64,000 bases of DNA, taken from positions 868,001-932,000 of the forward strand of contig NZ_CP009505.1 of assembly GCF_000970045.1 (NCBI RefSeq), read 5' to 3'. The first letter of the stretch is position 1, and each line of letters begins with the position of its first letter. This document shows, piece by piece, positions 34,913 through 55,387 of the stretch. This stretch comes from Methanosarcina sp. MTP4 (GTDB lineage Archaea > Halobacteriota > Methanosarcinia > Methanosarcinales > Methanosarcinaceae). A model generated the notes under the pieces. The model was given only the letters and a program-made list of their open reading frames with translations. It was not told where the DNA came from and made no database searches. The position numbers were made by a program, and so were the translations under genes.

Positions 34913-35434
34913 ATGTTAATTTTCGGGCACATCGTTTTTACGATTGGAATTTTCTTCATGCTTGAGCGTATTCTTCCGGCACTCAGAGGCAGGCTTGATT
35001 ACCGTTACATAGCTTTCGGAGCCCTGCTGCCAGACATTCTCGACAAAATGGTCGGCAGGGTAATTTTTGCCGAGATTCTCGCAAATGGGCGAATTGTCGG
35101 GCATACGCTTGTGTTTTGTCTTTTTATCGCATTACTGGGTTACTATCGCTATGGGAAGAGCAGGGACACAGGTTTGTTCCTGATATCTGGAGCATGTTTT
35201 TTCCACCTGCTTGAAGACCGTATGTGGGATAAGCCTCATACCTTATTCTGGCCGGCTTTTGGCTGGGAATTTCCTAAGGTATGCTGTTACGGAGGGGGTC
35301 TGGATTACTTTCTGAATATGGCCACGATCGGTTATGTTCCGTCTCTTTGTCCCTGTTTCATTACCGAGTTTATAGGTTTAATCATAGCGGTAATAATATC
35401 TGCAATTTACCTGAGGCGCAGGTTAATTCATTGA
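34913..35434 (+). CDS. Membrane-bound metal-dependent hydrolase-like protein (YdjM/DUF457 type)
   Basis: A 173-aa integral membrane protein with four or five helices. Conserved polar residues sit at membrane edges: GALLPDILDK, GHTLVF and HLLEDRMWDKPHTLFWPAFGW, the pattern of the YdjM/LexA-regulated membrane hydrolase family, whose D and H residues are thought to bind metal. Substrate is unknown, probably a lipid. It lies just upstream of the phosphopantetheinyl transferase gene (66 bp) on the same strand. A second protein of the same broad type is encoded at 52072-52656. Confidence 0.8.
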   Translation: MLIFGHIVFTIGIFFMLERILPALRGRLDYRYIAFGALLPDILDKMVGRVIFAEILANGRIVGHTLVFCLFIALLGYYRYGKSRDTGLFLISGACFFHLLEDRMWDKPHTLFWPAFGWEFPKVCCYGGGLDYFLNMATIGYVPSLCPCFITEFIGLIIAVIISAIYLRRRLIH

Positions 35435-35499: not shown

Positions 35500-36216
35500 A
35501 TGCAAACTGAAAGCTTAAAGGCAGAATCTCAGGTTGTTCCGGAAGTATCTCCGATCACTCCGGACCATACTCTCCCGGCAAATATGCCCTGCTTATGGGA
35601 ACAGAATGATATTCTTATCTTTCTGGTTGACCTGGAAGATTACGGCACATTGAGTACGGAATGCCTTGACGATATGGAAATGGAAGGCCTGGAGAGATTA
35701 AAAACCGGGTATTTCAGGAAAAGGTACATTATTTCCAGAATGGTCCTGAAATATATTCTGTGCAGAATTCTTAAAGGACATTCCGTCTCCGACATGGCTA
35801 CTTATAAGGATAAATGCGGAAAGGTCCATGTAAGCAACCATGAAGAATTACATGTCTGTATCTCATATACTGAAAATATTGTCGTTCTTGCAGTCTCAAA
35901 GTTTGAGCTTGGGGTTGATATTGAGGTTAAAAAAAAGCGGTCTCTTGCGAACATTTCTAAATACCTGAATAAAAAAACTTTTCAAACCGATAAATCCGTA
36001 AATTGTCTCGATCTCTTAACGACCTGGACCCTGAAAGAAGCGTATTGCAAGTTTTCGAATAAAAGTATTTTTTCTACTTTTTATAGGGAATTGGATCTTA
36101 ATAATGTCAGTTATTCAAGCTATATTATAGACAACGAATACATACTTTCCCTCATTACTTCTGAAGGCTGGCATACTATCAATATAAGCCTCCTCGAGAA
36201 AATAGCCTTTCCATGA
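35500..36216 (+). CDS. 4'-Phosphopantetheinyl transferase, Sfp type
   Basis: A 238-aa enzyme that moves the phosphopantetheine arm of CoA to a serine of a carrier protein. The two-half Sfp layout is seen: RKRYIISRMVLKYIL in the first half, then ISYTENIVVLAVSKFELGVDIEVKKKRS with the magnesium-binding D and E, and TTWTLKEAYCKF (W-x-x-KEA) with the last metal ligand and lysine. All key residues are present. The substrate is almost certainly the acyl carrier protein encoded 1.4 kb downstream. Such transferases are rare in methanogens, which lack ACP-based fatty acid synthesis, so acquisition with the cluster is likely. Confidence 0.9.
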   Translation: MQTESLKAESQVVPEVSPITPDHTLPANMPCLWEQNDILIFLVDLEDYGTLSTECLDDMEMEGLERLKTGYFRKRYIISRMVLKYILCRILKGHSVSDMATYKDKCGKVHVSNHEELHVCISYTENIVVLAVSKFELGVDIEVKKKRSLANISKYLNKKTFQTDKSVNCLDLLTTWTLKEAYCKFSNKSIFSTFYRELDLNNVSYSSYIIDNEYILSLITSEGWHTINISLLEKIAFP

Positions 36217-36327
36217 AACTTAACTCTCTATGAGAACTTAACTTCTCTATGAGAACTGGTTCTAAAACTTAGAACTGCAATTTTTGGAGCCTCCTCCCTA
36301 TGCCCTATTCATGTTCGTACTCTATTC

Positions 36328-36597
36328 ATGTTGATAATGGTGTGTTCAAATCACATACTAAAACAATACTTATTGAATTTCCAGAGTAATCTTTTTCTTT
36401 CTTATTCCCTGAGTTTGGTGGGGGTTCTATGCAGAATCCTTTCTAAAAGGCGGTCTTTAAACTTTCCAAGAAACATTGTTTCTCATCTTTATTATGAAAT
36501 TTTATTTCAATATTTTTTTATTTTATGGGGTTATATAGCACTTGCTGATGTCTGGCTATACATACCTTTCCTCACAGGCAGAAATTATAAAAAATAG
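36328..36597 (+). pseudogene. Possible C-terminal remnant of a membrane glycosyltransferase
   Basis: An 89-codon frame. Its second half (YYEILFQYFFILWGYIALAD and a basic tail GRNYKK) looks like the last membrane helices of a GT2-type glycosyltransferase. No catalytic part is upstream in any frame. It is most likely a fragment left by rearrangement; the match is weak. Confidence 0.25.
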
Positions 36598-36891
36598 TTT
36601 GAATTTAGCATCTCAAATAATTGATAAAAATTCTACTATCATGGCGAACTGTTCTGGAGTGCAGTTTTTCATGTCTGAGATTATTGAAACATGACATATT
36701 CAATATTTGGGGGATAGGGGTATAAGTTTATCAGGAGAAGTCTCACCTGGGTCGATGTTTATCCTTCCAGCTTTTGATAAGAAGTTGTGATAGAGACTGT
36801 TGCTAAATGAAAAAGGTGAACAATATAATAATTAACATGGTTATGTGCCATGGGGGGACAAGAAAATAAGTGGCACTGTTAAGACATGGTG

Positions 36892-37136
36892 AACAATATA
36901 ATGGGTGACGTGACTAAGACATGGGGGCAATATAATGGGTGATATGGCTAAGATACGGGGAACAATATAATGGGTGACGTGACTAAGATACGGGGAACAA
37001 TATAATGGGTGACGTGGCTAAGATACGGGGAACAATATAATGGGTGACGTGACTAAGATACGGGGAACAATATAATGGGTGACGTGGCTAAGATACGGGG
37101 AACAATATAATGGGTGATGTGACTAAGAAATAGGGG
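36892..37136. repeat. 35-bp tandem repeat, 7 copies
   Basis: Units AACAATATAATGGGTGACGT plus GACTAAGATACGGGG follow one another without spacers at 36892, 36927, 36961, 36996, 37031, 37066 and 37101. Successive copies alternate between GTGACTAAG and GTGGCTAAG, which points to growth by duplication of a 70-bp pair. More degenerate pieces precede (from about 36822). Confidence 0.93.
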
Positions 37137-37153
37137 ATAATATAAATAATTCC

Positions 37154-37403
37154 GACTTACCCGACATGTTCTCTAGAAAATAACATTTTTTAGCTATCGT
37201 TTTTGGATTATTGCTCTAAAATCCACAATTATTATCTCAAGAACCTTCGGGAAATGAAAGTTGGAAGCTTTTAATGAAGGCACGAGGGCGAAAAGTGTGG
37301 GAGATTTCAAAAACACACGTTTGAAAACCAGGGCAGTTTTCAGAGAAAACGATATTAGGAACAATGGTGAAAATTGAGAAGACACCTGGATAAAGTGGGA
37401 TAA
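37154..37403. repeat. Dispersed repeat, copy 1 (~250 bp)
   Basis: Aligns over its length with 46332-46583 in the same orientation, roughly three quarters of bases by eye. It begins GACTTACCCGACATGTTCT and ends near AAAGTGGGATAA. The minus strand of both copies can be read as similar peptide pieces (QTCVFEISHTFRPRAFIKSF here), so it may come from an old coding element. Confidence 0.75.
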
Positions 37404-37605
37404 TTGATATGGGGAACAATATAACAAATGATAAGGGTGACAATGTAAATAATTTATATGAGAAACAATATAAATAATTGATAATACGTAAATACTAATG
37501 GGGATTACTCAAATATTTACGGGGATATTAACACAATGATGCACTAAAGTGTATACTACTCATGTTGTTTTATCCACTATACGAAATTAGGGGGGCTAAG
37601 GTCGA

Positions 37606-37851
37606 ATGGAACATATAAAGAATGATATACTTGATTATCTGAAAGACAATTCTTTTATGGACACGAGCATTGGCTTGAATGATAACGATTCTCTCACCCA
37701 GAACGGCATCATGGATTCGATTGGACTGCTTGAATTGATGGACTATATCTGTGAAAAATATGCCATAGAAGTTCCCGAAGATATGCTGACGCCGGAAAAT
37801 TTTGACTCACTGCAGGGGATCACTAACCTGATTGTCAAACTGGTGAAGTGA
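37606..37851 (+). CDS. Acyl carrier protein
   Basis: An 81-aa acidic four-helix carrier protein. The phosphopantetheine site is GIMDSIGLLEL with Ser38, matching the DSxGxxEL pattern. The helix II and III residues (MDYICEKYAIEVPEDMLTPENFDSL) are typical of stand-alone carriers in biosynthetic clusters, close to D-alanyl or aminoacyl carrier proteins. The ATG follows GGGGGGCTAAGG. It overlaps or nearly touches the next gene, the AMP ligase, which is expected to load it. ACPs are unusual in methanogens. Confidence 0.93.
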   Translation: MEHIKNDILDYLKDNSFMDTSIGLNDNDSLTQNGIMDSIGLLELMDYICEKYAIEVPEDMLTPENFDSLQGITNLIVKLVK

Positions 37852-37856
37852 GAGAT

Positions 37857-39335
37857 ATGAGGATCGATGCTTATATCGCGGAATATGCCAGAAGAACTCC
37901 TCAGCAAATAGCTCTGGAAGAAGGCAAAAAATCCATCTCCTACAACTGTCTCGATGAAGATATAGATACTATTGCTTCGTCTATGGGGGACTTCGGGCAT
38001 TGCAGGTTTGCAATCCTGGCAGAGTCAGGCATACAATACATAAAGATTCTCATGGCAGTATACCGGTCAGCCAACATTGCAATACCTCTTCCGATCGAAT
38101 TCCCGAAATTCAGTCTGGAGCAAATTCTTGATAATGCCCACGTCAATAATATAATTGCAACAGAGGCACAGTACTCTAGATATGGTGAGGACTTTTTTGG
38201 GCGTTTTGGAACGGTTGTTGTTGTTTCAAATGACACTTCAGTAAAGACCCTGCGTAAAAATATAGTAAATGAGGCCAACAATCCGGAACTGAGGCTGGTG
38301 CTGTACACGTCTGGCACGACAGGCACTCCAAAAGGGGTCATGTTAAGTGATCGAAATCTGGTAGCAAATGCAGAATCGATAATCGAGGTTCTCAGCATAA
38401 GTTCCGGTGATAAGGGCGCACTGGTAATATCTCCACACCACGCTTTTGGTAATTCCATAATCGATTCCCACCTGATGGCCGGGGGGGCTGTCAGAATCGG
38501 AAGCATGAATTTTATGGAATCTACATTCAGCTTGGTTGAATCAGGGGTATCCGTATTCTACGGAGTGCCAAGTACTTATCGGATCCTCCTCCGCTATCCA
38601 GAGAGGTTCAAAAAGGCATTTGAAAATGTCAGGACTGCCGCATCCGCAGGTGGAGGAATGGACGCATTAACCGTGAAAGAGATAAACGAGTTGAGTCCCT
38701 GTACGGTGATTCTGCCGATGTATGGCCAGACTGAAGCTACAGCACGCCTGGCATACCTGCCACCAGAGGACGTGGACGAGTTCGTTGATACGATAGGCAA
38801 GCCGATTCCCGGCGTTATGCTTGACGTATTCGATGATGAAAACAGGTCGGTAGGGCCGAACATAAGGGGGGAACTGGTTGCCAGGGGTGAGAATATTCTA
38901 TTAGGTTACCTGGACGACGAGATCGCCACTGAGAATAAGCTCATAAATGGGTGGATGCACACGGGAGACCTTGCACAGAAATTACCCAATGGTTATTTCA
39001 GGCTGCTTGGCCGCAAGGACGACCTCATTAAAATAGGCGATCACCGCGTGAATCCGAGGGAAATTGAAAAACACATAGAGAATAACACTGAGGTTTCCAG
39101 GGTTTTTGTCGTACCGGTTTCCCACGAGCTTATGGGGACTGCGATCAGCCTCATGATCATCCCGAAGGAAGGGACAGAAGTTGATGCTCTTTTTTCATTC
39201 TGCCGGAAGAATTTGCCCGGGTACCTGTGTCCCAGGGAGATACTTTTCATCGACCATCTCCCATTAAGCGAGAATGGGAAGATATCCAATCGGTCAATTA
39301 TAGGGGAGTACCAAAATGTCAAGAATAGTGTGTAA
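37857..39335 (+). CDS. Acyl-AMP ligase (AMP-binding / ANL family)
   Basis: A 492-aa adenylating enzyme that activates a carboxylic acid with ATP and passes it to a thiol, here probably the neighbouring carrier protein. Core motifs are complete: LYTSGTTGTPKGVMLS (ATP loop), MYGQTEATAR, GWMHTGDLAQ, FRLLGRKDDLIKIGDHRVNP (hinge) and SENGKISNRS with the catalytic lysine. The acid pocket cannot be read with certainty; candidates are small hydroxy, amino or fatty acids. The ATG at 37857 lies five bases after the carrier protein stop; a GTG at 37848 would overlap it. Its end overlaps the next gene by 20 bases, so these genes are translationally coupled. Confidence 0.93.
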   Translation: MRIDAYIAEYARRTPQQIALEEGKKSISYNCLDEDIDTIASSMGDFGHCRFAILAESGIQYIKILMAVYRSANIAIPLPIEFPKFSLEQILDNAHVNNIIATEAQYSRYGEDFFGRFGTVVVVSNDTSVKTLRKNIVNEANNPELRLVLYTSGTTGTPKGVMLSDRNLVANAESIIEVLSISSGDKGALVISPHHAFGNSIIDSHLMAGGAVRIGSMNFMESTFSLVESGVSVFYGVPSTYRILLRYPERFKKAFENVRTAASAGGGMDALTVKEINELSPCTVILPMYGQTEATARLAYLPPEDVDEFVDTIGKPIPGVMLDVFDDENRSVGPNIRGELVARGENILLGYLDDEIATENKLINGWMHTGDLAQKLPNGYFRLLGRKDDLIKIGDHRVNPREIEKHIENNTEVSRVFVVPVSHELMGTAISLMIIPKEGTEVDALFSFCRKNLPGYLCPREILFIDHLPLSENGKISNRSIIGEYQNVKNSV

Positions 39336-40320
39336 AAAGTGTGTTCTGGACTCGGATATGCCAGGCATAGATATCAATGAGGAAAGTGGGCTCTGTCATT
39401 TTTGTGAGACGTATGTCCCTCTTTCTGCGCAGGACAAGAGGGAATATCTGGCAAAAATGGAAGAACTCTTCAAGGAATACGGAGGCAGGGGTAAGTATGA
39501 TGTGGTTTTTGCACTTTCCGGGGGCAAGGACTCTTCATACACACTTCACAAACTCAAAAAAGAATATCCTTTCCTGAAAGTCCTGGCTGTCCAGTTCGAT
39601 AATGGTTTCATATCTGACAACGCGGTAGAAAATGCGAAAAAGATGTGTAAGCTCACAGGATCTGATTATTTTAAACTAACAATGGAAGATGAGGTCCTGT
39701 ACGAAACTTTCCGGAAAGCCGCGGAATCCCGCGATGCATTCCCCAAGTTAGCCAAATACAGGGCCAGCGACATATGCAACACCTGTATTAGTATCATCAA
39801 GCAGAAGTTGATAGAAGAGGCTATTGTTCAGGATGCACCTTTCATTATGTTTGCCTTCACACCGGGGCAGTCTCCTAATCCCATAATCCCCCTGAAGGCT
39901 AATTTTATACGGTGGTCCAGGAACATTTTTGAAAAACAACTTCAAAAAATTGACATTGATGATAGGGATGAGAGGTTCCTGATTAAAAACGAGGTTATTG
40001 AAAATATGGGCAAGGAGGGACCGAGGATGCTTCATCCTCTGTGTCTGTGGGATTATAACGAAGGTAAGATTCTGGAGTCCCTGGTGAAGATCGGGTGGAA
40101 CCCTCCGGATCTCAATGACAGCAATTCAACCAACTGTACATTGAATTCTTTTGCCTGTTATAACCATCTGGAAAAATACGGGATCCACCCGTATGCCTTT
40201 GATATAGCAGGAATTGTCCGAAGTGGGGATATGTCAAGGGAAGAAGGCCTGGAAAAACTTCACCAGGAGCTATCACAACCACTGATAGAGGAAGCTGCAA
40301 AGAAACTAAATTACGGGTGA
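39316..40320 (+). CDS. PP-loop amidotransferase, WbpG-like (N-acetyl sugar amidotransferase family)
   Basis: A 334-aa ATP pyrophosphatase. The N-terminal zinc ribbon (CKKCV, then GLCHFC) and the adenylation loop FALSGGKDSSYTLHKL match the WbpG family, which in bacterial O-antigen synthesis turns an acetamido group on a sugar into an acetamidino group. A further C-x2-C-x pair is in ASDICNTCISI, and NSTNCTLNSF is near the end. The usual partners, HisH- and HisF-like ammonia suppliers, are not in the window. It overlaps the ligase gene and has GGGGAG ahead of its ATG. A role in amidating or amidinating a carrier-bound or sugar substrate is inferred. Confidence 0.85.
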   Translation: MSRIVCKKCVLDSDMPGIDINEESGLCHFCETYVPLSAQDKREYLAKMEELFKEYGGRGKYDVVFALSGGKDSSYTLHKLKKEYPFLKVLAVQFDNGFISDNAVENAKKMCKLTGSDYFKLTMEDEVLYETFRKAAESRDAFPKLAKYRASDICNTCISIIKQKLIEEAIVQDAPFIMFAFTPGQSPNPIIPLKANFIRWSRNIFEKQLQKIDIDDRDERFLIKNEVIENMGKEGPRMLHPLCLWDYNEGKILESLVKIGWNPPDLNDSNSTNCTLNSFACYNHLEKYGIHPYAFDIAGIVRSGDMSREEGLEKLHQELSQPLIEEAAKKLNYG

Positions 40321-40665
40321 ATGACTCTCGAAACCTGTTACTTGATATTTGATATCTGATATTTGATATTTGATATCTGATATTTGATATCTGATATTTG
40401 ATCTCGGTATCTATTCGTTGCTGTTCAAAACCTTGACACAGGTTGCTTAAAATACAGCTCCTTCCGGTTGAGTTAAGAGCATTCCATAATTAATGCTATT
40501 TCCTCAAAATCAGTGGTAGCTATTTCCTCAATCCCCACATGTAAAATTTCTTAATTCACAATGTTGCGTCAAAGTCTGTAATATTATATCAAAGTTTGTA
40601 ATATAATGTCAATTAAACGTTAACGATCAAATGTCAATCATCTGACCATTATGGGGGGCAATATC
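40321..40665. other. Spacer with 7-bp tandem repeat
   Basis: About 345 bases between the WbpG-like and NadE-like genes. From about 40342 to 40402 it consists of the 7-mers TGATATT and TGATATC in turn. No gene. A separate promoter for the next two genes may lie in the AT-rich remainder. Confidence 0.7.
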
Positions 40666-41664
40666 ATGCAAATGATAGATTCGCAATTAATGGACATACA
40701 AATAATGGACAAACTTAACGGGAACATTGAAAAGCTTGCAATGGAGCTCAGGGGCTTTATCAAAGACCAGGTTGCCGGTTTTAAGAAAAAGGGGGTGGTA
40801 ATAGGAGTTTCGGGAGGAGTCGATTCCGCTGTAGCTCTTACGCTTTCCGTCCGGGAACTTGGAAAGGAGAACGTTTACTGTCTGCTTCTTCCTGAAAGGG
40901 AATCGGCTCCTTCGAGTAAAACCCTCGGGGCAGAAATCTGTGAAAGCCTAGGTGTGGCTTATGAAGAGGTACCTATCTCCCATATACTGGAATCCCTTGA
41001 TATCTATGGGAGGAAGGACATAATCATAAAGAAGACCTGCCCGGAATATGACCCTCAGGTCCACAAAACATCCCTGGTACTGCCTGATTTCCTGAACCAG
41101 GGATTGTTGAACGTCCCGTATATACAGTTGATAAAAGACGGGGAGACAGTTGGAAAATACAGGTTGAAGGCAAGTGATTATCTGGAACTTATCGGACTTC
41201 AGAACGTCAAACAGAGGTCCAGAATGATAGTCCAGTATATGTACGCTGAGAAGATGAACTATCTCGTTTGCGGCACGACCAACAAGACCGAGATGGTCCT
41301 CGGCCAGTTCGTGAAATACGGGGACGGAGGTGTGGATATTGAACCTCTGGCGGATTGCTATAAGACCCAGGTCTACTCTCTGGCAAAATATCTTAATGTC
41401 AACGAAGAGATTATACGGAGGCCGCCAAGTGCTGACACCTGGAGCCACTACACCTCTGATGAGGACTTCTACTGGCGCATGCCCATTCATGTAATGGATC
41501 AATTACTGTATGGTCAGGAACATCAAATGCCCGTAGAAGTAATTGAGAAGAACACCGGACTGTCCGAAGAGACCATACTCAAAGCTCAAAGGCACATTGC
41601 TAGAATAAAAGGTACTACCGAATATGTGCGGGCCGCCGCACCTATCTACTCTCTGGATAGTTAA
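40666..41664 (+). CDS. Diverged NAD-synthetase (NadE) paralog
   Basis: A 332-aa PP-loop enzyme of the ammonia-dependent NAD synthetase fold. GVSGGVDSAVALTLS is the ATP pyrophosphatase loop; QNVKQRSRMIVQYMYAE, CGTTNKTEMVLGQFVKYGDGG and CYKTQVYSLAKYLNV follow family order. It is some 60 residues longer than normal NadE, with an insert around residues 105-155. The usual PSADLWxGQTDExELG segment, which closes the active site over the nicotinate part, reads PSADTWSHYTSDEDFYWRMP. So the substrate is probably a different carboxylate to be amidated. ATG 40666 has GGGGGG 9 bases upstream; the ATG at 40651 overlaps it. It is followed by the reductase gene. Confidence 0.87.
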   Translation: MQMIDSQLMDIQIMDKLNGNIEKLAMELRGFIKDQVAGFKKKGVVIGVSGGVDSAVALTLSVRELGKENVYCLLLPERESAPSSKTLGAEICESLGVAYEEVPISHILESLDIYGRKDIIIKKTCPEYDPQVHKTSLVLPDFLNQGLLNVPYIQLIKDGETVGKYRLKASDYLELIGLQNVKQRSRMIVQYMYAEKMNYLVCGTTNKTEMVLGQFVKYGDGGVDIEPLADCYKTQVYSLAKYLNVNEEIIRRPPSADTWSHYTSDEDFYWRMPIHVMDQLLYGQEHQMPVEVIEKNTGLSEETILKAQRHIARIKGTTEYVRAAAPIYSLDS

Positions 41665-41744
41665 GCCGCAGCTTTTCCCCGGCTGGTTGCTTCATGGGCC
41701 GCTCTCCGGCTGGTTAAGTACACGAGGTAGGTACAGGAGGAAAA

Positions 41745-42485
41745 ATGCTTACAGGCAAAGTGGTGCTGGTAACAGGTGCAAGTAGGGGGATTGGAAGAGC
41801 TACAGCCTTGCTGGCAGCAGAGAACCATGCACATGTGATCATAAACTACAACCGGAGTGAGGAAAATGCAGTTGAACTTGTGGACCTGATTCGTGGGAAA
41901 GGGCTCCAGGCTTCGTTGCTCAAGGCCGATGTCTCATCCGAAGCCGAGGTAAGGGACATGTTTCGGGCTATTCGGGAGAAACATTCCAGTCTCGATGTGC
42001 TGGTAAACAATGCGGGGATCATGCAAAATAACCTTCTGATGCTGAGCAATACGGAACTCTTCGACCGTACCATCGCCACTAACCTGAAGGGGACGTTCCT
42101 GTGTGCCAGGTACGCATCAAACCTGATGAAGAAGCAGGGTGCCGGCAGGATTATCAATTTATCTTCCACCATAGGACTCCACGGGAATGTCGGGCAGACA
42201 GTATATTCTGCAAGCAAGGCTGCAGTTGTCGGATTTACAAAATCCGCAGCAAAGGAACTGGGCAGGTATGGCATAACTGTCAATGCCATCGCACCCGGTT
42301 TCATTGAAACTGACCTTCTCAAAGATCTCAAACCTGCTCTCAGGGAAAAAATGATTTCCAATATCGCTCTCGGACGTGTCGGTATTCCCGAAGATGTTGC
42401 AAAGGTGGTATTATTTTTGAGCTCGGATCTCGGGGAGTATGTTAGTGGAGAAGTCATTGTAGTCGACGGCTGTCAGATTATGTGA
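41745..42485 (+). CDS. FabG-like short-chain dehydrogenase
   Basis: A 246-aa classical SDR. The cofactor loop is TGASRGIGRA, NNAGIM follows, the catalytic serine is in NLSSTIG, and YSASKAA holds tyrosine and lysine. Closest in look to 3-oxoacyl-ACP reductases, which reduce a carrier-bound 3-oxo group with NADPH. With the carrier protein cluster upstream, a carrier-bound or sugar substrate is likely, but SDR specificity cannot be read from motifs. GGAGG precedes the ATG. It is the last gene before the insertion sequences. Confidence 0.9.
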   Translation: MLTGKVVLVTGASRGIGRATALLAAENHAHVIINYNRSEENAVELVDLIRGKGLQASLLKADVSSEAEVRDMFRAIREKHSSLDVLVNNAGIMQNNLLMLSNTELFDRTIATNLKGTFLCARYASNLMKKQGAGRIINLSSTIGLHGNVGQTVYSASKAAVVGFTKSAAKELGRYGITVNAIAPGFIETDLLKDLKPALREKMISNIALGRVGIPEDVAKVVLFLSSDLGEYVSGEVIVVDGCQIM

Positions 42486-42841: not shown

Positions 42842-44134
42842 ATGCATTTCGATTCTTGTTTTCAAACAAAAACTCGTTCTTGCATTTCGAAATGCATTGA
42901 TTACCTTAAAGGCTTGATTCTCCTGCCAAGCAGGAGAAATCTGAGAAAGATGGCAATTTATAGCTCCAAAAGGTCTGACAACCAAGCTTTAAGCCACTTT
43001 CTCTCAAACTCTCCATGGCCTCATAAAAACCTTCTCAGATCGGTTCGAACAAAAGCCATTGAAACTATAGGTCCAAATGGTGTTATTATACTTGACGAAT
43101 CAGGTATGAAAAAATCGGGAAACAGTTCTGTTGGAGTCTCACGCCAGTATTGCGGCAACCTGGGAAAGGTAGACAATTGTCAGGTTGGTGTCTTTCTTGC
43201 TTATTTTAAAGGAGGCAAGAGAACATTGATCGATTTCAGGTTATATCTGCCTGAAAACTGGGTAGAGGATAAAGAACGTTGTTTGAAGGCGAAAATACCT
43301 CCTGAAAAGATAAGGTTCCAGACCAAGTATGAACTTGGACTGGAAATGATTGATAACGCAATAAATGAGGAAATCCCTTTTTCCTATGTCACAATGGATG
43401 GGTTTTATGGAGAAAATCCAACGTTACTGACTGAACTTGAAAACAGAAGTATAACCTTTGTTGCGGATATAGCTTCTAATACTCAGGTTTATCTTGAAGA
43501 ACCAGTTGTTGGAATCCCTGAGAAAAAAGGATCAAGGGGAAGACTTCCTACTATACCTAAAGTGTTGAATATTTCACCTATAAAAGTGAGTTCACTTTCC
43601 AGTTTACGAGATAAATGGAAACTGATCAAAGTTAGAAAAACGGAAAGAGGGCACAAAAAAGTCTATTTTAAAGCTTTACAAGTCTGGAGAAGGCAGAATG
43701 AGCTTCCTTGTGAAAAGCCGTTATGGCTTCTCATAAGTAAAGATGCAAAAACAGGGGAAGTAAAACACTCACTTTGCAATGCAGCAGAGAATACTTCACT
43801 TGAAAAGCTTGCAGAAATGCAGAGTTCAAGATACTGGGTAGAGAGAGCGTTTCAGGACGCAAAACAGAATTGTGGAATGGATGAATACATGGTTAGAAGC
43901 TGGAATGCATGGCATCATCATATGGCGATGGTAATGCTTGCAATGCTTATTTTGATCTCATACCAGATGAAATTCAGAAAGTTGCACAATCAAGTTTCAA
44001 TTCCTGCTGTCATTGAAATCATGAAGTTTCATAATCCTCTGAAAGTGATGAATGCTACACAACTTGCCATGAAAATAAATCAGGATAATGAGATGAGAGT
44101 TAGGGCAAGGTTAAGCAGGTTAAAAGGATCATAA
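42842..44134 (+). mobile_element. IS701-family transposase (DDE), apparently intact
   Basis: A 430-aa transposase. Catalytic triad candidates are in GVIILDESGMKKSG (D), SYVTMDGFYGE (D) and SRYWVERAFQDAKQ (E), with GVSRQYCGNLGKVDNCQVG typical of the IS701/DDE_5 group. The C-terminal region holds the WHHHMAMVMLAMLILISYQ helix. The frame is complete, so it may be active. It sits directly after the carrier-protein cluster and back to back with a second IS, inside the interval bounded by the two dispersed repeats. Confidence 0.88.
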
Positions 44135-44346
44135 TATTTGAGATTTGATTGAAATGGGCTGAATTCTTGTTCCCGATACTGGTAAGTATATAATTTTGGT
44201 GGAAATGGGTGAAAATTTGTAGAAGATAAGGTTCTCAATTAAGAGAGATAGAATTTGACTTGACTTTCAAAGATGCATGATTTTCCGTCATCAAGCGACT
44301 ATATTTGTGTAGGCCTAAGAAATGAATGATCCTAATGATAGCGTTT

Positions 44347-46012
44347 TTATTGAGATGGCAGGTATTTTCCCAGGTTCAAGAAAGAGAATAATGATGCTTG
44401 CTTTGTGCTCATCTCCTCCATAATTATTTTACTTTCATTTGATTTTTTTTCCTGGACAACCGCCAGCCTTATTTCCGACAAATTTTCAATGAGTTTCCTC
44501 ATAGATAATCCATATCTTTTGGTTTCCCAGGCTAAATATCTGTAGAAAAGTAAGCCAATTATGGACAGAAACACATGAACTCTAATATTTTCGTCTTTAT
44601 GGTGATAAACAGGTCCTACAGGGACAAGCAAGTGATCGTTCAATAGCTTAAAATCATCCTCTATAGCGCCTTTGTTGTTGTATGTCTGCACAATTTTTTT
44701 GGTATGCCACTGATGTTTATCTGTAAACAGTAGATTTTTTCCAAATGATTTTTCACACTTGTTTTCATTTTCCTCATCAATCCAGAACTTTAACTGGGGC
44801 TTTTTCTTACCTTCCGGAACATCAGTTATTTCATATTTCACTTCAGTCCTGTACTTTTTGATAATTATGTCAGCAACCTCTTTTTCCACGCTGCTTCTGT
44901 TTCTTGCTTTTCCTCTGTTGCTTTCCAGTCTCTTCTGTAGATCCTCCAAATTCTCAATTATTTTTGATTTATTTGATTCATAAGTTCTTTTTTGAAGTTT
45001 GTAAGTTCCTTCGTTGTAGGTTATCACGGTTGTAAACTCGGTCCCGTAAAACTGGTGCGTTGTCCGAAATCCATAAATTTTATTGTCTTTTGAAGTCTCA
45101 TATAAATGTTTAAATTTGGAGAGGGGAATATCAAGCAGCTCTTCGGCCTGATTTGCTTTTACAGCCCCTACAAAATTCATCTTTGAAGTTACCTTCTCAA
45201 TGTTGTCCTTAGAGTTGTTTCCTTTATCAAAAACAAGAACAAAGGTCTTCCGAACAAATATTCAACTCAGACAGACGAGTTATTATTTTGTCTATTAGGC
45301 CTGAAAATTCCTCTGAATCATGAACATTTCCAGGATATGTTTCGTGAATAAAAGGGATGTTATAATCATTTGCAGCCAGTGCTACAGACACCTGATTTTT
45401 GTCTTTACGATGCTTTTTGTTATACCCTTTATGAAGAAGTTCACTTTTTTCATCATGATTGGTAGCATAGGTAAACCAGTTTGATTCATCCACAAATAGT
45501 ACAGAGGGAGTCAACCCCTTTTTTACAAGAACTTGGCACAGATCGTCCTCGATTTTTTTCATTGTGTCAGAATCGATGTAGCTCATTTGATTCAAGAAAT
45601 TCTGACAACTTAATCTGTGTGGAAAGTTCCACATAAAAGCTAAGGTGGATTTATTGAACCATTCTTCGATACCGTTTTCACTTAGAACTCCATGACTTTT
45701 TCCTATAATATCAAGTAAAAGATATTCCCCTACACTCAAACCATCTATTGACTTTTTTTCAGTGTGACTGTTTACGATATCAACAAATCCAAATTCTTCA
45801 TTCACATGAAGAAGTGCGGCAACTTTGCCGTATTCAAAGGATCTAAGTTTAATATAGGGCAATGATTCACACAGGTTTTTCATCTCAAGTATCTTTTCTG
45901 CGTTGCCCAGATAGACCTGAAAAATAGTTTTCACTTTTCCATTAACTCTACCAGTTTTAACAATATACCAGTATGATTTACCGTTGATTAATTTCTGTTT
46001 TAAAAAAACCAT
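44347..46012 (-). pseudogene. IS1634-like transposase split by a frameshift
   Basis: Two adjoining minus-strand frames (45227-46012 and 44347-45180) together make a full transposase of about 550 aa. The first half has a catalytic aspartate region SVLFVDESNWFTYATN and ETYPGNVHDSEEF; it then shifts frame near 45240-45255. In the other frame the missing link reads TFVLVFDKGNNSKDN, which contains the second catalytic aspartate, and continues to the second half, where GAIEDDFKLLNDHLL supplies the glutamate region and VHVFLSIIGLLFYRYL the family C-terminus. A single-base indel explains this. Programmed frameshifting is possible but no slippery run with a stem is evident. Confidence 0.85.
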
Positions 46013-52071: not shown

Positions 52072-52656
52072 ATGCCTTATCCAGTTGCACATGTTCTATT
52101 CTTTGTGTTCTGTATCTGCGCAGTAGCAGTCTATGTTACTGTGGGGGAACTCTTCCGCAAGGAACTTTCCCCGAGGGGCATCAAACAGATCCTATTACTA
52201 CTATTTGTGGGTGGTTTATGTTCACTGTTCCCGGATAGCATAGTCGTTTATAACTTCCTAATAAATGGAACTCTTGAACACTGCTGGATCGGCCCGATCC
52301 CGACACATTCATTATTATTCAGTTTTTCTGCAATCCTATCTGGAGCGTTTATCGGATATATAGTATATCGGAATTTTGGGAAGGCCGTATATATGAGCCT
52401 TTTTGCCGAGGCTGCGTTCCTTTCACACCTGTTGCTAGACGATATTGATGAAGGCGGCGTGGTTTATTTTTATCCGATATACAATCAACCAATCAGTGTG
52501 TTCTCGTATATGGGTGTGGGTTTTTTAGAAGTTAATTTAGTCCATTACTTGATAGCATCTTTTGTGTCTGTTTTCTTTATTTACACAATAATTATGATGG
52601 CATTGTTTGCATTGAATCGTTTTGGTTTTGAGTTCAGATTCAGATCCGAAAAGTGA
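52072..52656 (+). CDS. Membrane-bound metal-dependent hydrolase-like protein (second copy)
   Basis: A 194-aa membrane protein with five or six helices. The polar residues of the YdjM-like family recur: LFPDSIVVYN, PTHSLLFSF, and HLLLDDIDEGGVVYFYPI. A metal-dependent hydrolase on a membrane substrate is likely; the substrate is unknown. It is a distant relative of the 34913-35434 protein. It is transcribed alone. Confidence 0.75.
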   Translation: MPYPVAHVLFFVFCICAVAVYVTVGELFRKELSPRGIKQILLLLFVGGLCSLFPDSIVVYNFLINGTLEHCWIGPIPTHSLLFSFSAILSGAFIGYIVYRNFGKAVYMSLFAEAAFLSHLLLDDIDEGGVVYFYPIYNQPISVFSYMGVGFLEVNLVHYLIASFVSVFFIYTIIMMALFALNRFGFEFRFRSEK

Positions 52657-53001: not shown

Positions 53002-53655
53002 TCAAAGCCGGGTCTTAATTCTACCAGTAACATCCGGTCGTGAGGGGGAGTTACTGTCCGTGTCTTGAGAAACAGATTCATTAGATTTATTCTGATGGAT
53101 TTGGGACTCTTCATTTTGCTGATGGTTTTCATGAATTCCTCCCCAGGACTCAACATCCAGCTTTTTTACAACTCGAGCCGGGAATCCCAGAGCAAGACTA
53201 TTCGGAGAGATATCACGACTAACCACTGATCCAATTCCGATTATAGAATTTTCCCCGATTTCAACCCCTTGCGTGATTATACATCCTGGATTTACACCAA
53301 CACCGCCCCCGATTTTTATGGGGGCCATGCTTCTTGGATAAGCATCTCTAGTGGTTAAACTGCCTCTTGTGTGGGCAGACAGTATACAGCGATCCCCAAT
53401 TTCGGCATAATCTCCTATAGTGATTAATTCAGGGTGAATCCTATCAAAAATCACATCATACCCGATGTATACATTTTTACCTATATTTACGCCTCTCATT
53501 TTATGAAATTTCGCTCTCCAAGAAGGGACTGGAAGACATGAGGCAAGTCTTTCCAAAACCCAATTTTTGAAATATTTCATCCCAAACAGGATTTTATTAC
53601 TCTGATAATAATCAGCTACTTCACTATAAGTTATTTTATCCCTGTCAGATATCAC
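53002..53655 (-). CDS. Hexapeptide-repeat acetyltransferase with disordered tail
   Basis: A 217-aa acyltransferase of the serine/galactoside acetyltransferase type. The beta-helix core spans about residues 52-170 (VNIGKNVYIGYDVIFD, ITIGDYAEIGDRCILSAHT with the catalytic histidine, IKIGGGVGVNPGCIITQG, ENSIIGIGSVVSRDI, then LGFPARVVKKL). After residue 175 comes a tail rich in N, Q, S and D (HENHQQNEESQIHQN and on), probably unstructured and not part of the usual family. The GTG at 53655 has GGGGGG seven to eight bases ahead. Likely sugar O-acetylation. Confidence 0.87.
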   Translation of the reverse strand: MISDRDKITYSEVADYYQSNKILFGMKYFKNWVLERLASCLPVPSWRAKFHKMRGVNIGKNVYIGYDVIFDRIHPELITIGDYAEIGDRCILSAHTRGSLTTRDAYPRSMAPIKIGGGVGVNPGCIITQGVEIGENSIIGIGSVVSRDISPNSLALGFPARVVKKLDVESWGGIHENHQQNEESQIHQNKSNESVSQDTDSNSPSRPDVTGRIKTRL

Positions 53656-53801: not shown

Positions 53802-54929
53802 TTACCCCCTGTTTACAATTTTTACGAGCAGTGATTTTTTGATTTCTACCGCATCGTTAGGACACAGTTCGCGGCAACAATAACACTGGATACATTTTTC
53901 ATCGTTGATCCTGAGTGCATCTCTCACTTCCTCAATGGCATTTGCCGAACAGTTCAAAATACATGCTTTGCAAAGTGTGCATTTTGAAGTGTTGATGAAG
54001 GGCTTTACTGTGAAATACCTCCTGAGAGTCTTTCGGAGAAACGGCGGTATTAGGGTGGTGATTCCACCGGTTGGCTTTTTGAAACTGACCTTTACCTCCT
54101 CCAGCGGAGTTCCTAAAAGTTCCGGATGCCTGGCACCAAATCCCCTCTCAAGTGCGGCTTTGTTTGTCGGGACCTGCATTGGGTCAAAACCGATTAGTTC
54201 CGATGCCACCATATCCAGGGCCGCACAGTCATAACTTGCCATGACCACTCCCACATATGCAGGAGTGCCTCCAGCCGGGCCATCCCCTTCCATTCCTACC
54301 ACTCCGTCCATAACTGCAAGCTGAGGTTTGACAATAGAGTAGATATCTACAACCGCCTCCCCGAAAAGTTCACGGTCTTCCAGGAAATGCGCCTGCTTTC
54401 GGATTTTCCTGGGCACAGTGCCAAAAAAGTTTTTGACTGCTCCTGTATAGAGTGTGAGCTCATGGGTCTTGAGCTTTGGAAGAGAAATTATCACATCCGC
54501 CTCAAGCACAGCCTTTGATATATAAAGGCGTGAAAACTGCCTGGCCCCAGGTACATCAACCTCGACAAAACCCAAAGTCTCAAAATTGATGAGTTCCGCA
54601 CCGAAACTCGAGGCGGCAGCTTCAATACCCGATACCCTGAATGCTTCCGCAGTGGTAGTGGAATCAGGCCTTGTAACTCCGGCTCCGTCCCCTATAAGCG
54701 GAATACCCCCTGCCTCTGAAACCAGTTCACACATCGCCGATACCACTGCAGGGTGAGTAGTGACTGCATCTTCCGGGGGTCGAATGGCAAGTACATTGGG
54801 TTTAAGCAACACACGGGAACCCGGAAATATTAGGTTCTCAAGGCCGCCGATCAGGTCAAGAGCTTCTTTGATCGCATTTTTTACGTCTGAATAATCGGAG
54901 CAATGCAAGATGGAAACTCTGGTGTTCAT
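53802..54929 (-). CDS. DUF362 protein with two 4Fe-4S clusters
   Basis: A 375-aa protein. The DUF362 domain (about residues 1-290) has VLLKPNVLA, THPAVVSAM, GDGAGVTRP, SLPKLKTHELTLYTGAVKNFFG and MDGVVGMEGDGPAGG. The C-terminus is a two-cluster ferredoxin: CTLCKACILNCSANAI and CIQCYCCRELCPNDAV. DUF362 ferredoxin proteins are common in anaerobes, with unknown substrate; electron transfer to a bound molecule is assumed. The ATG at 54929 is chosen; the GTG at 54935 is an option. Its link with the neighbouring sugar genes is not clear. Confidence 0.9.
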   Translation of the reverse strand: MNTRVSILHCSDYSDVKNAIKEALDLIGGLENLIFPGSRVLLKPNVLAIRPPEDAVTTHPAVVSAMCELVSEAGGIPLIGDGAGVTRPDSTTTAEAFRVSGIEAAASSFGAELINFETLGFVEVDVPGARQFSRLYISKAVLEADVIISLPKLKTHELTLYTGAVKNFFGTVPRKIRKQAHFLEDRELFGEAVVDIYSIVKPQLAVMDGVVGMEGDGPAGGTPAYVGVVMASYDCAALDMVASELIGFDPMQVPTNKAALERGFGARHPELLGTPLEEVKVSFKKPTGGITTLIPPFLRKTLRRYFTVKPFINTSKCTLCKACILNCSANAIEEVRDALRINDEKCIQCYCCRELCPNDAVEIKKSLLVKIVNRG

Positions 54930-55387
54930 GATCACACATCGACATTAAGTTTTGAGATCTGTTTTATGAAGGTCTCTTTTTTGCTTTTTTTACGGAATTT
55001 TAAGCGTGGCACGAACACTCCCAGTTGATTGAAGCGTGGCACGCCAGTGAAACTTTGATTTTGGTTTGATTAACTGGTTGAAATCCTCCCAGTTCTCTTT
55101 GATTATATCTTGATCAAAATGGGAATTTTTTCAATATCTACCTTCGTCTTTTTTCAGGGAGTATCCGTTTTAATTCATTGAACCTTTTTGTGTAGTTTAA
55201 ATACTGTAGACAAAGTATGCCATGTGCAAGATTTAAACTACAACAGTTTGTTTTTCTCTACCTTTTTTTCAGGGTAAGTTTCCGTTAGACTGAGTAGTTT
55301 TTATGATAACTTTGTATTTTTTGTATGTGAGATCCTTTTCTTATCTTCAATTTTGATGTGCAGGGATAAATATGCTCTTGAAAACTT
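54930..55387. other. Gene-free stretch with dispersed repeat
   Basis: Holds a repeat at about 55020-55065 (CCCAGTTGATTGAAGCG and on to GCCAGTGAAACTTTGATTT) that recurs at 60041-60085, and two related segments TCTACC plus TTTTTTTCAGGG near 55138 and 55258. No gene. Confidence 0.6.
55020..55065. repeat. Dispersed 45-bp repeat, copy 1
   Basis: CCCAGTTGATTGAAGCGTGG plus CACGCCAGTGAAACTTTGATTT. It matches 60041-60085 at most positions in the same orientation. GCGTGGCACG also occurs once more just upstream (about 55003). Confidence 0.7.

Follow-up and report, generated by a model that had tools for sequence, protein, structure and literature searches.

An acyl carrier protein operon with a NadE-like ammonia ligase in Methanosarcina, and its possible part in decorating surface glycans

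Archaeal lipids are generally held to be made without acyl carrier proteins (ACPs), yet a large part of one methanogen family keeps a carrier, its activating enzyme and a ligase in an operon that is inherited as a unit. What does a methanogen do with such a carrier? We asked this of a 64,000-nt stretch of the Methanosarcina sp. MTP4 genome (contig NZ_CP009505.1, positions 868,001 to 932,000; hereafter the window), the host genome being a single contig of 4.21 Mb. Between 35,500 and 42,485 of the window, six intact open reading frames (ORFs) on the + strand encode a phosphopantetheinyl transferase (PPT), an ACP, an adenylate-forming ligase (LIG), a WbpG-like PP-loop enzyme (WBUX), a NadE-like enzyme (NADE) and a short-chain dehydrogenase/reductase (SDR). 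In the reading that we favour, with a probability of about one half, an acid is loaded onto this dedicated ACP, undergoes amidation there and ends up on a surface glycan.

An operon gained and lost as a unit

An initial annotation of the locus had described six genes on one strand, those for the ACP, the ligase and the WbpG-like enzyme overlapping or touching. Both statements hold: ORFs, Pfam and NCBIfam assignments agree with it, and the overlaps measure 4 bp (ACP/ligase) and 20 bp (ligase/WbpG-like; Table 1). Gaps of 1.4 kb and 0.33 kb separate PPT from ACP and the WbpG-like gene from NADE. Pairwise comparison with a congener gave ratios of nonsynonymous to synonymous substitution rates (dN/dS) of 0.09–0.19 for ACP, ligase, WBUX, NADE and SDR, and of 0.42 for PPT; all six are under purifying selection.

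The operon is a true unit whose members are gained and lost together. ACP and NADE profiles matched exactly the same 42 of 101 Methanosarcinaceae genomes, and the PPT profile matched all of these and three more (two weak matches, one from an incomplete genome). Most genomes of one genus (g6, probably Methanolobus) have no ACP, NADE or PPT, and two (G346 and G429) have all three. The WbpG-like protein is present in 32 of 393 genomes of the phylum, 30 of them in Methanosarcinaceae. Its gene adjoins that of the ligase at all 30 Methanosarcinaceae loci fetched, and ligase, WbpG-like and NADE genes are contiguous at 29 of these. Across 20-kb neighbourhoods the gene order is PPT-ACP-LIG-WBUX-NADE-SDR-DUF362-ACT2, the last two encoding an iron-sulphur protein and a hexapeptide acyltransferase. 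The entire series lies on one strand in the closest relative, a congener (L032), and other genera carry SDR, DUF362 or both.

Beyond IS701 and broken IS1634 genes in the window, DUF362 and the acyltransferase gene lie inverted at 53.0–54.9 kb; the arrangement after SDR is the same at a second congener locus (L033). This is consistent with an inversion associated with insertion sequences, with breakpoints after SDR and beside DUF362, that split the two genes off. The six genes of the initial annotation stand, but not its limits of the cluster, since DUF362 and the acyltransferase also belong to the unit. Its statement that there is no acyltransferase fails as well: the hexapeptide enzyme adjoins the operon in relatives, and GNAT, MBOAT or Acyl_transf_3 enzymes lie beside it in other lineages. 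The IS701 transposase gene and the IS1634 gene, the latter in two pieces, occupy 42842-46012 of the window, where DUF362 and the acyltransferase are parted from the operon.

Second or third copies of the operon, without an adjacent PPT gene, occur in other Methanosarcina genomes (L036, L042-L044); among them, one NADE gene has a TAA stop and one WbpG-like copy is without NADE. Indolepyruvate ferredoxin oxidoreductase-like genes lie beside some second copies (L036, L043), at a few related loci only. At L035:6938-7750 the DUF362 gene is split into two ORFs, an intact copy persisting at L036 in the same genome. The PPT-ACP gap of the window holds a 35-bp tandem repeat (about 7 copies, 91% matches; 36880-37128), and AT-rich tandem repeats of 7 and 21 bp lie in the gap before NADE (40335-40402).

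Table 1. Genes of the operon and its displaced part, in window coordinates.
Feature	Position	Strand	Basis
Sfp-type phosphopantetheinyl transferase (PPT)	35500..36216	+	PF01648, 20.9 bits, and motifs; sole PPT in genome by family profile
Free-standing acyl/aminoacyl carrier protein (ACP)	37606..37851	+	PF00550, 20.5 bits; Ser38; sole ACP in genome by family profile
Stand-alone adenylate-forming ligase (LIG)	37848..39335	+	Complete; both AMP-binding domains; core motifs intact
WbpG/WbuX-like (NASAT-like) PP-loop enzyme (WBUX)	39316..40320	+	116.7 bits; tetracysteine, SGGKDS
NadE-like ammonia ligase, distinct clade (NADE)	40651..41664	+	NF002048, 469 bits (cut-off 313)
FabG-like short-chain dehydrogenase/reductase (SDR)	41745..42485	+	NCBIfam, 270 bits
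DUF362 protein, two [4Fe-4S] motifs	53802..54935	-	Adjoins 3' side of SDR or NADE in relatives
Hexapeptide (left-handed beta-helix) acyltransferase (ACT2)	53002..53655	-	Last gene of operon in relatives; candidate acyl transferase

Loading of the carrier

Two opening steps of the proposed pathway are inferred with good support. The PPT would turn apo-ACP into holo-ACP, as its intact motifs and its co-occurrence with the carrier suggest, and the ligase would adenylate a free acid and load it onto the ACP, to which its motifs, the gene overlap and the type of carrier point. The PPT is diverged, falling below the Pfam ACPS cut-off (20.9 versus 25 bits). Its Sfp-type motifs GxDxE and WTxxEA..K are intact, with G138, D140, E142, W176, E180 and K184 invariant across 13 orthologues and the first Lys of the second motif variable. 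The ACP scores at the PF00550 cut-off (20.5 versus 20.8 bits) and was missed by the whole-genome search with that model, so ACPs were counted with a family profile instead. By family profiles the genome has one ACP and one PPT, which upholds the dedicated carrier-protein pathway of the initial annotation. D37 and S38 of the ACP's DSI motif are invariant in all 14 aligned orthologues, and among its nearest relatives of solved structure are peptidyl, prolyl and D-alanyl carriers that likewise stand free.

No adenylation core motif is missing from the ligase, and the C-terminal Lys is in place. Adenylation domains of nonribosomal peptide synthetases (NRPS) hold the amino group of the substrate with an Asp; at that site sequence alignment, the only evidence for it, places His in Methanosarcinaceae and Tyr or Phe in others. 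Without that Asp a classical alpha-amino acid is an unlikely substrate, and the loaded acid is probably of another kind; NRPS-type loading of an amino acid was rejected on this ground. Fatty-acid synthesis was also rejected, there being no dedicated ketosynthase in the genome, as the initial annotation had held (the sole PF00109 match is weak, at 23.7 bits). The loaded acid would be reduced and/or amidated.

In three Methanococcoides-type genomes (G252, G041 and G032), a single in-frame TAG breaks the operon's PPT gene. It is codon 76 both at L046:12823-13506 (- strand; G252) and at L049:6385-7068 (+ strand; G032). Beyond the TAG, dN/dS is 0.28 and the catalytic motifs are intact, a combination that makes pyrrolysine possible at this position; the Methanococcoides-type PPT may contain it.

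A distinct NadE-like clade in archaea and bacteria

The NCBI model that NADE matches is named NAD(+) synthase, and the locus could be read as a spare NAD synthetase with unrelated chance neighbours. This is hardly credible: the conservation of the operon, gained and lost as a unit, already contradicts it, a separate canonical NadE (298 bits) is encoded elsewhere in the host genome, and residues at the canonical substrate end are replaced in NADE. Canonical NAD synthesis by this enzyme was rejected on the last two grounds.

In a maximum-likelihood tree, 25 of 26 NADE sequences form one clade (support 100/99) with canonical NadE outside; the exception, a Caldiserica protein (L083), groups with two Thermotogales sequences. 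The PP-loop SGGxDSA, GTxNKxE and KYGDGG..K of NadE are retained. Canonical L197 gives way to T in 25 of the 26, E204 to D or Q, G208 mostly to R and K254 mostly to a hydrophobic residue. The C-terminal Lys region of NadE contacts the dinucleotide. With these substrate-end residues replaced, the substrate of NADE is probably other than nicotinic acid adenine dinucleotide (NaAD), and the NAD(+) synthase annotation of the clade, in archaea and bacteria, is probably wrong. The structural model (predicted local distance difference test, pLDDT, 80) has the NadE fold, with PDB 2E18 as top match (Foldseek E 1e-16) and an insert of three beta-strands at about residues 137-172, between the two NadE halves. 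NADE thus resembles NH3-dependent NAD synthetase (NadE; PDB 2E18, 1XNG) in fold, P-loop and ammonia-ligase core, but differs in its separate clade, the insert and the four replaced residues.

We propose, with moderate support, that NADE uses ATP to activate a second carboxylate of the tethered acid and adds ammonia, which would give a carboxamide. A second nitrogen would be supplied or added, again with moderate support, by the WbpG-like enzyme, for example in turning the amide into an amidine; an AsnB-type glutamine amidotransferase replaces this enzyme in most bacterial versions and would take its role there. The NADE substrate, once settled, would correct the annotation and expose a route to amide groups on surface polymers shared by archaea and bacteria; genetic tools exist for M. 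acetivorans.

How far does this association reach? A scan of a genome collection with the NADE alignment found archaeal matches in Methanomicrobiaceae, Methanoregula, a pacearchaeote and a thaumarchaeote, and bacterial ones in Latescibacterota, Planctomycetota, Aminicenantes, Acidobacteria, Desulfobacterales, Polyangiaceae and Anaerolineae. Plasmid searches added NADE from rhizobia and Azospirillum and gave no matches for the WbpG-like protein. Among 24 NADE-clade loci, ACP and ligase were each found at 18, the WbpG-like gene at 12 and AsnB at 8, figures that favour detection because the hidden Markov models (HMMs) came partly from the same loci, so that only the contrast with controls is reliable: 55 canonical NadE loci had no ACP, one ligase, and no WbpG-like or AsnB gene. 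The zero for ACP in these controls is independent of the training bias. Outside Methanosarcinaceae, ACP and ligase were each found at 12 of 18 loci. The genes are intact and conserved, and ACP, ligase and NADE form a cross-domain core; with the 42 of 101 family genomes, the 18 of 24 loci bear out the co-occurrence in archaea and bacteria that the initial annotation had proposed as a check.

The rhizobial asnB-ACP-ligase-nadE operons (Shinella, Mesorhizobium, Sinorhizobium, Nitratireductor) likewise combine ACP and ligase with a NADE from this clade, but have AsnB for the WbpG-like enzyme and are without SDR, DUF362 and PPT. At an Aminicenantes locus (L076:3681-6300), two different NADE-clade genes stand back to back around an ACP gene.

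From tethered acid to surface glycan

The WbpG-like enzyme has invariant C6, C9, C27 and C30 and an invariant S68-G-G-x-D-S loop. It shares the PP-loop SGGxDS, four zinc-type cysteines and C-terminal SG-D-REEG with the WbpG/WbuX enzyme NASAT (PDB 8WEX), and the four cysteines and PP-loop match the Legionella NASAT structure (LpNASAT; PMC10607449). It differs from NASAT in sharing a gene overlap with a ligase of ACP type. This likeness, and UDP-sugar dehydrogenase genes near some loci, would suit a different division of labour, in which an acetamidino sugar in the style of O-antigens comes from the WbpG-like enzyme, the ACP part acylates that sugar, and NADE amidates a sugar carboxylate (for example of N-acetylmannosaminuronic acid, ManNAcA) rather than a group on the ACP. 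We consider it improbable. The protein falls below the WbuX/NASAT cut-off (TIGR03573; 116.7 versus 203.2 bits), and no HisF2/HisH2 ammonia partner was found in or near the operon, the host's HisA/HisF-type genes (two clear, one weaker) all being distant. Moreover, NADE tracks ACP and ligase even in bacteria without a WbpG-like gene. The score and the missing HisF/HisH also led us to reject the idea that the WbpG-like enzyme carries out classical acetamidino synthesis by itself.

On our preferred reading, amidation on the carrier, the SDR and/or the Fe-S DUF362 protein would adjust the oxidation state of the group, which is the weakest step. The SDR lies below the equivalog cut-off for FabG 3-oxoacyl-ACP reductase (270.1 versus 297.75 bits), and the predicted DUF362 structure has a mean pLDDT of only 42. 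An acyltransferase would then take the group off the ACP and attach it to a sugar of the surface glycan, at an amino or a hydroxyl group: a hexapeptide enzyme in Methanosarcina, and a tandem GNAT, MBOAT or Acyl_transf_3 enzyme elsewhere.

Gene neighbourhoods make transfer to a surface glycan plausible. The 105 proteins encoded near 15 NADE loci outside Methanosarcinaceae are richest in glycosyltransferases (7 GT4-type, 3 GT2), Wzz/GNVR (4) and hexapeptide transferases (4), families that are not among the commonest around canonical NadE. Single loci add polysaccharide export proteins, Wzy_C, flippases, PGA_cap, MBOAT, GDSL and Acyl_transf_3; the MBOAT-like gene adjoins a planctomycete locus. 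Another recurrent neighbour of NADE, in Methanomicrobia and Planctomycetota, is a tandem-GNAT acyltransferase about 370 residues long; Shinella, Nitratireductor and S. meliloti (there 11 kb from NADE) gave weak matches to it. In the g6 genome examined (L038), the block has sugar-dehydrogenase, deacetylase-like and glycosyltransferase genes as neighbours.

The Dlt system (DltA ligase, DltC carrier, DltB MBOAT, DltD) offers a parallel, with a stand-alone ligase and a free carrier that ready acyl groups for attachment to a polymer of the cell surface. The ACP and ligase described here are weakly similar to DltC and DltA, but the ligase is without the alpha-amino Asp, two extra nitrogen-ligating enzymes are present, and an archaeal hexapeptide or GNAT transferase stands where Dlt has DltB and DltD. 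Neither MBOAT DltB nor DltD was found in the operon.

Several observations weigh against a glycan destination or the pathway as a whole. Several Methanosarcinaceae loci (Methanococcoides, some Methanosarcina) adjoin housekeeping genes and no glycan genes, and the S. meliloti copy lies beside minCDE without immediately adjacent glycan genes. The acyltransferase type varies by lineage and was not seen at every locus, and SDR and DUF362 are each absent from about half of the family loci. Outside the family, 6 of 18 NADE-clade loci had no detectable ACP in the fetched flanks, and the ACP, ligase, WBUX and AsnB models share loci with the counts, as described above. The substrate, product, chemistry and acceptor of the operon all rest on inference.

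The stand-alone operons beside housekeeping genes would also fit the same carrier chemistry with a free small metabolite as its product (an osmolyte, signal, cofactor side chain or antibiotic-like amide), released from the ACP. So would the best-matching models of the ACP, which include the cispentacin AmcB and petrobactin AsbD carriers. We regard a free product as unlikely, though a serious contender: no recurring thioesterase or exporter was seen at the examined loci, and glycan-cluster context is found in Planctomycetota, Latescibacterota, Desulfobacterales, Luteitalea and Shinella and, among archaea, in L038, some Methanosarcina genomes and Methanoregula relatives. The surface-glycan link of the initial annotation has support from neighbourhoods in bacteria and other archaea, but not every locus shows it.

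Extended across domains, the preferred reading becomes a tentative one: a module whose NadE-derived ligase would amidate ACP-tethered acids and, together with a second nitrogen-adding enzyme, give rise on surface glycans to a new class of acyl groups that bear amides or amidines, and which would be the sole carrier-protein pathway in methanogens. The open-access literature searched (on methanogens and exopolysaccharide clusters) holds no description of such a module, its coverage being partial and this absence no proof of novelty.

On either side of the region the window encodes a YdjM-like membrane protein (34913-35434 and 52072-52656), and the second gene is kept beside the acyltransferase in relatives.

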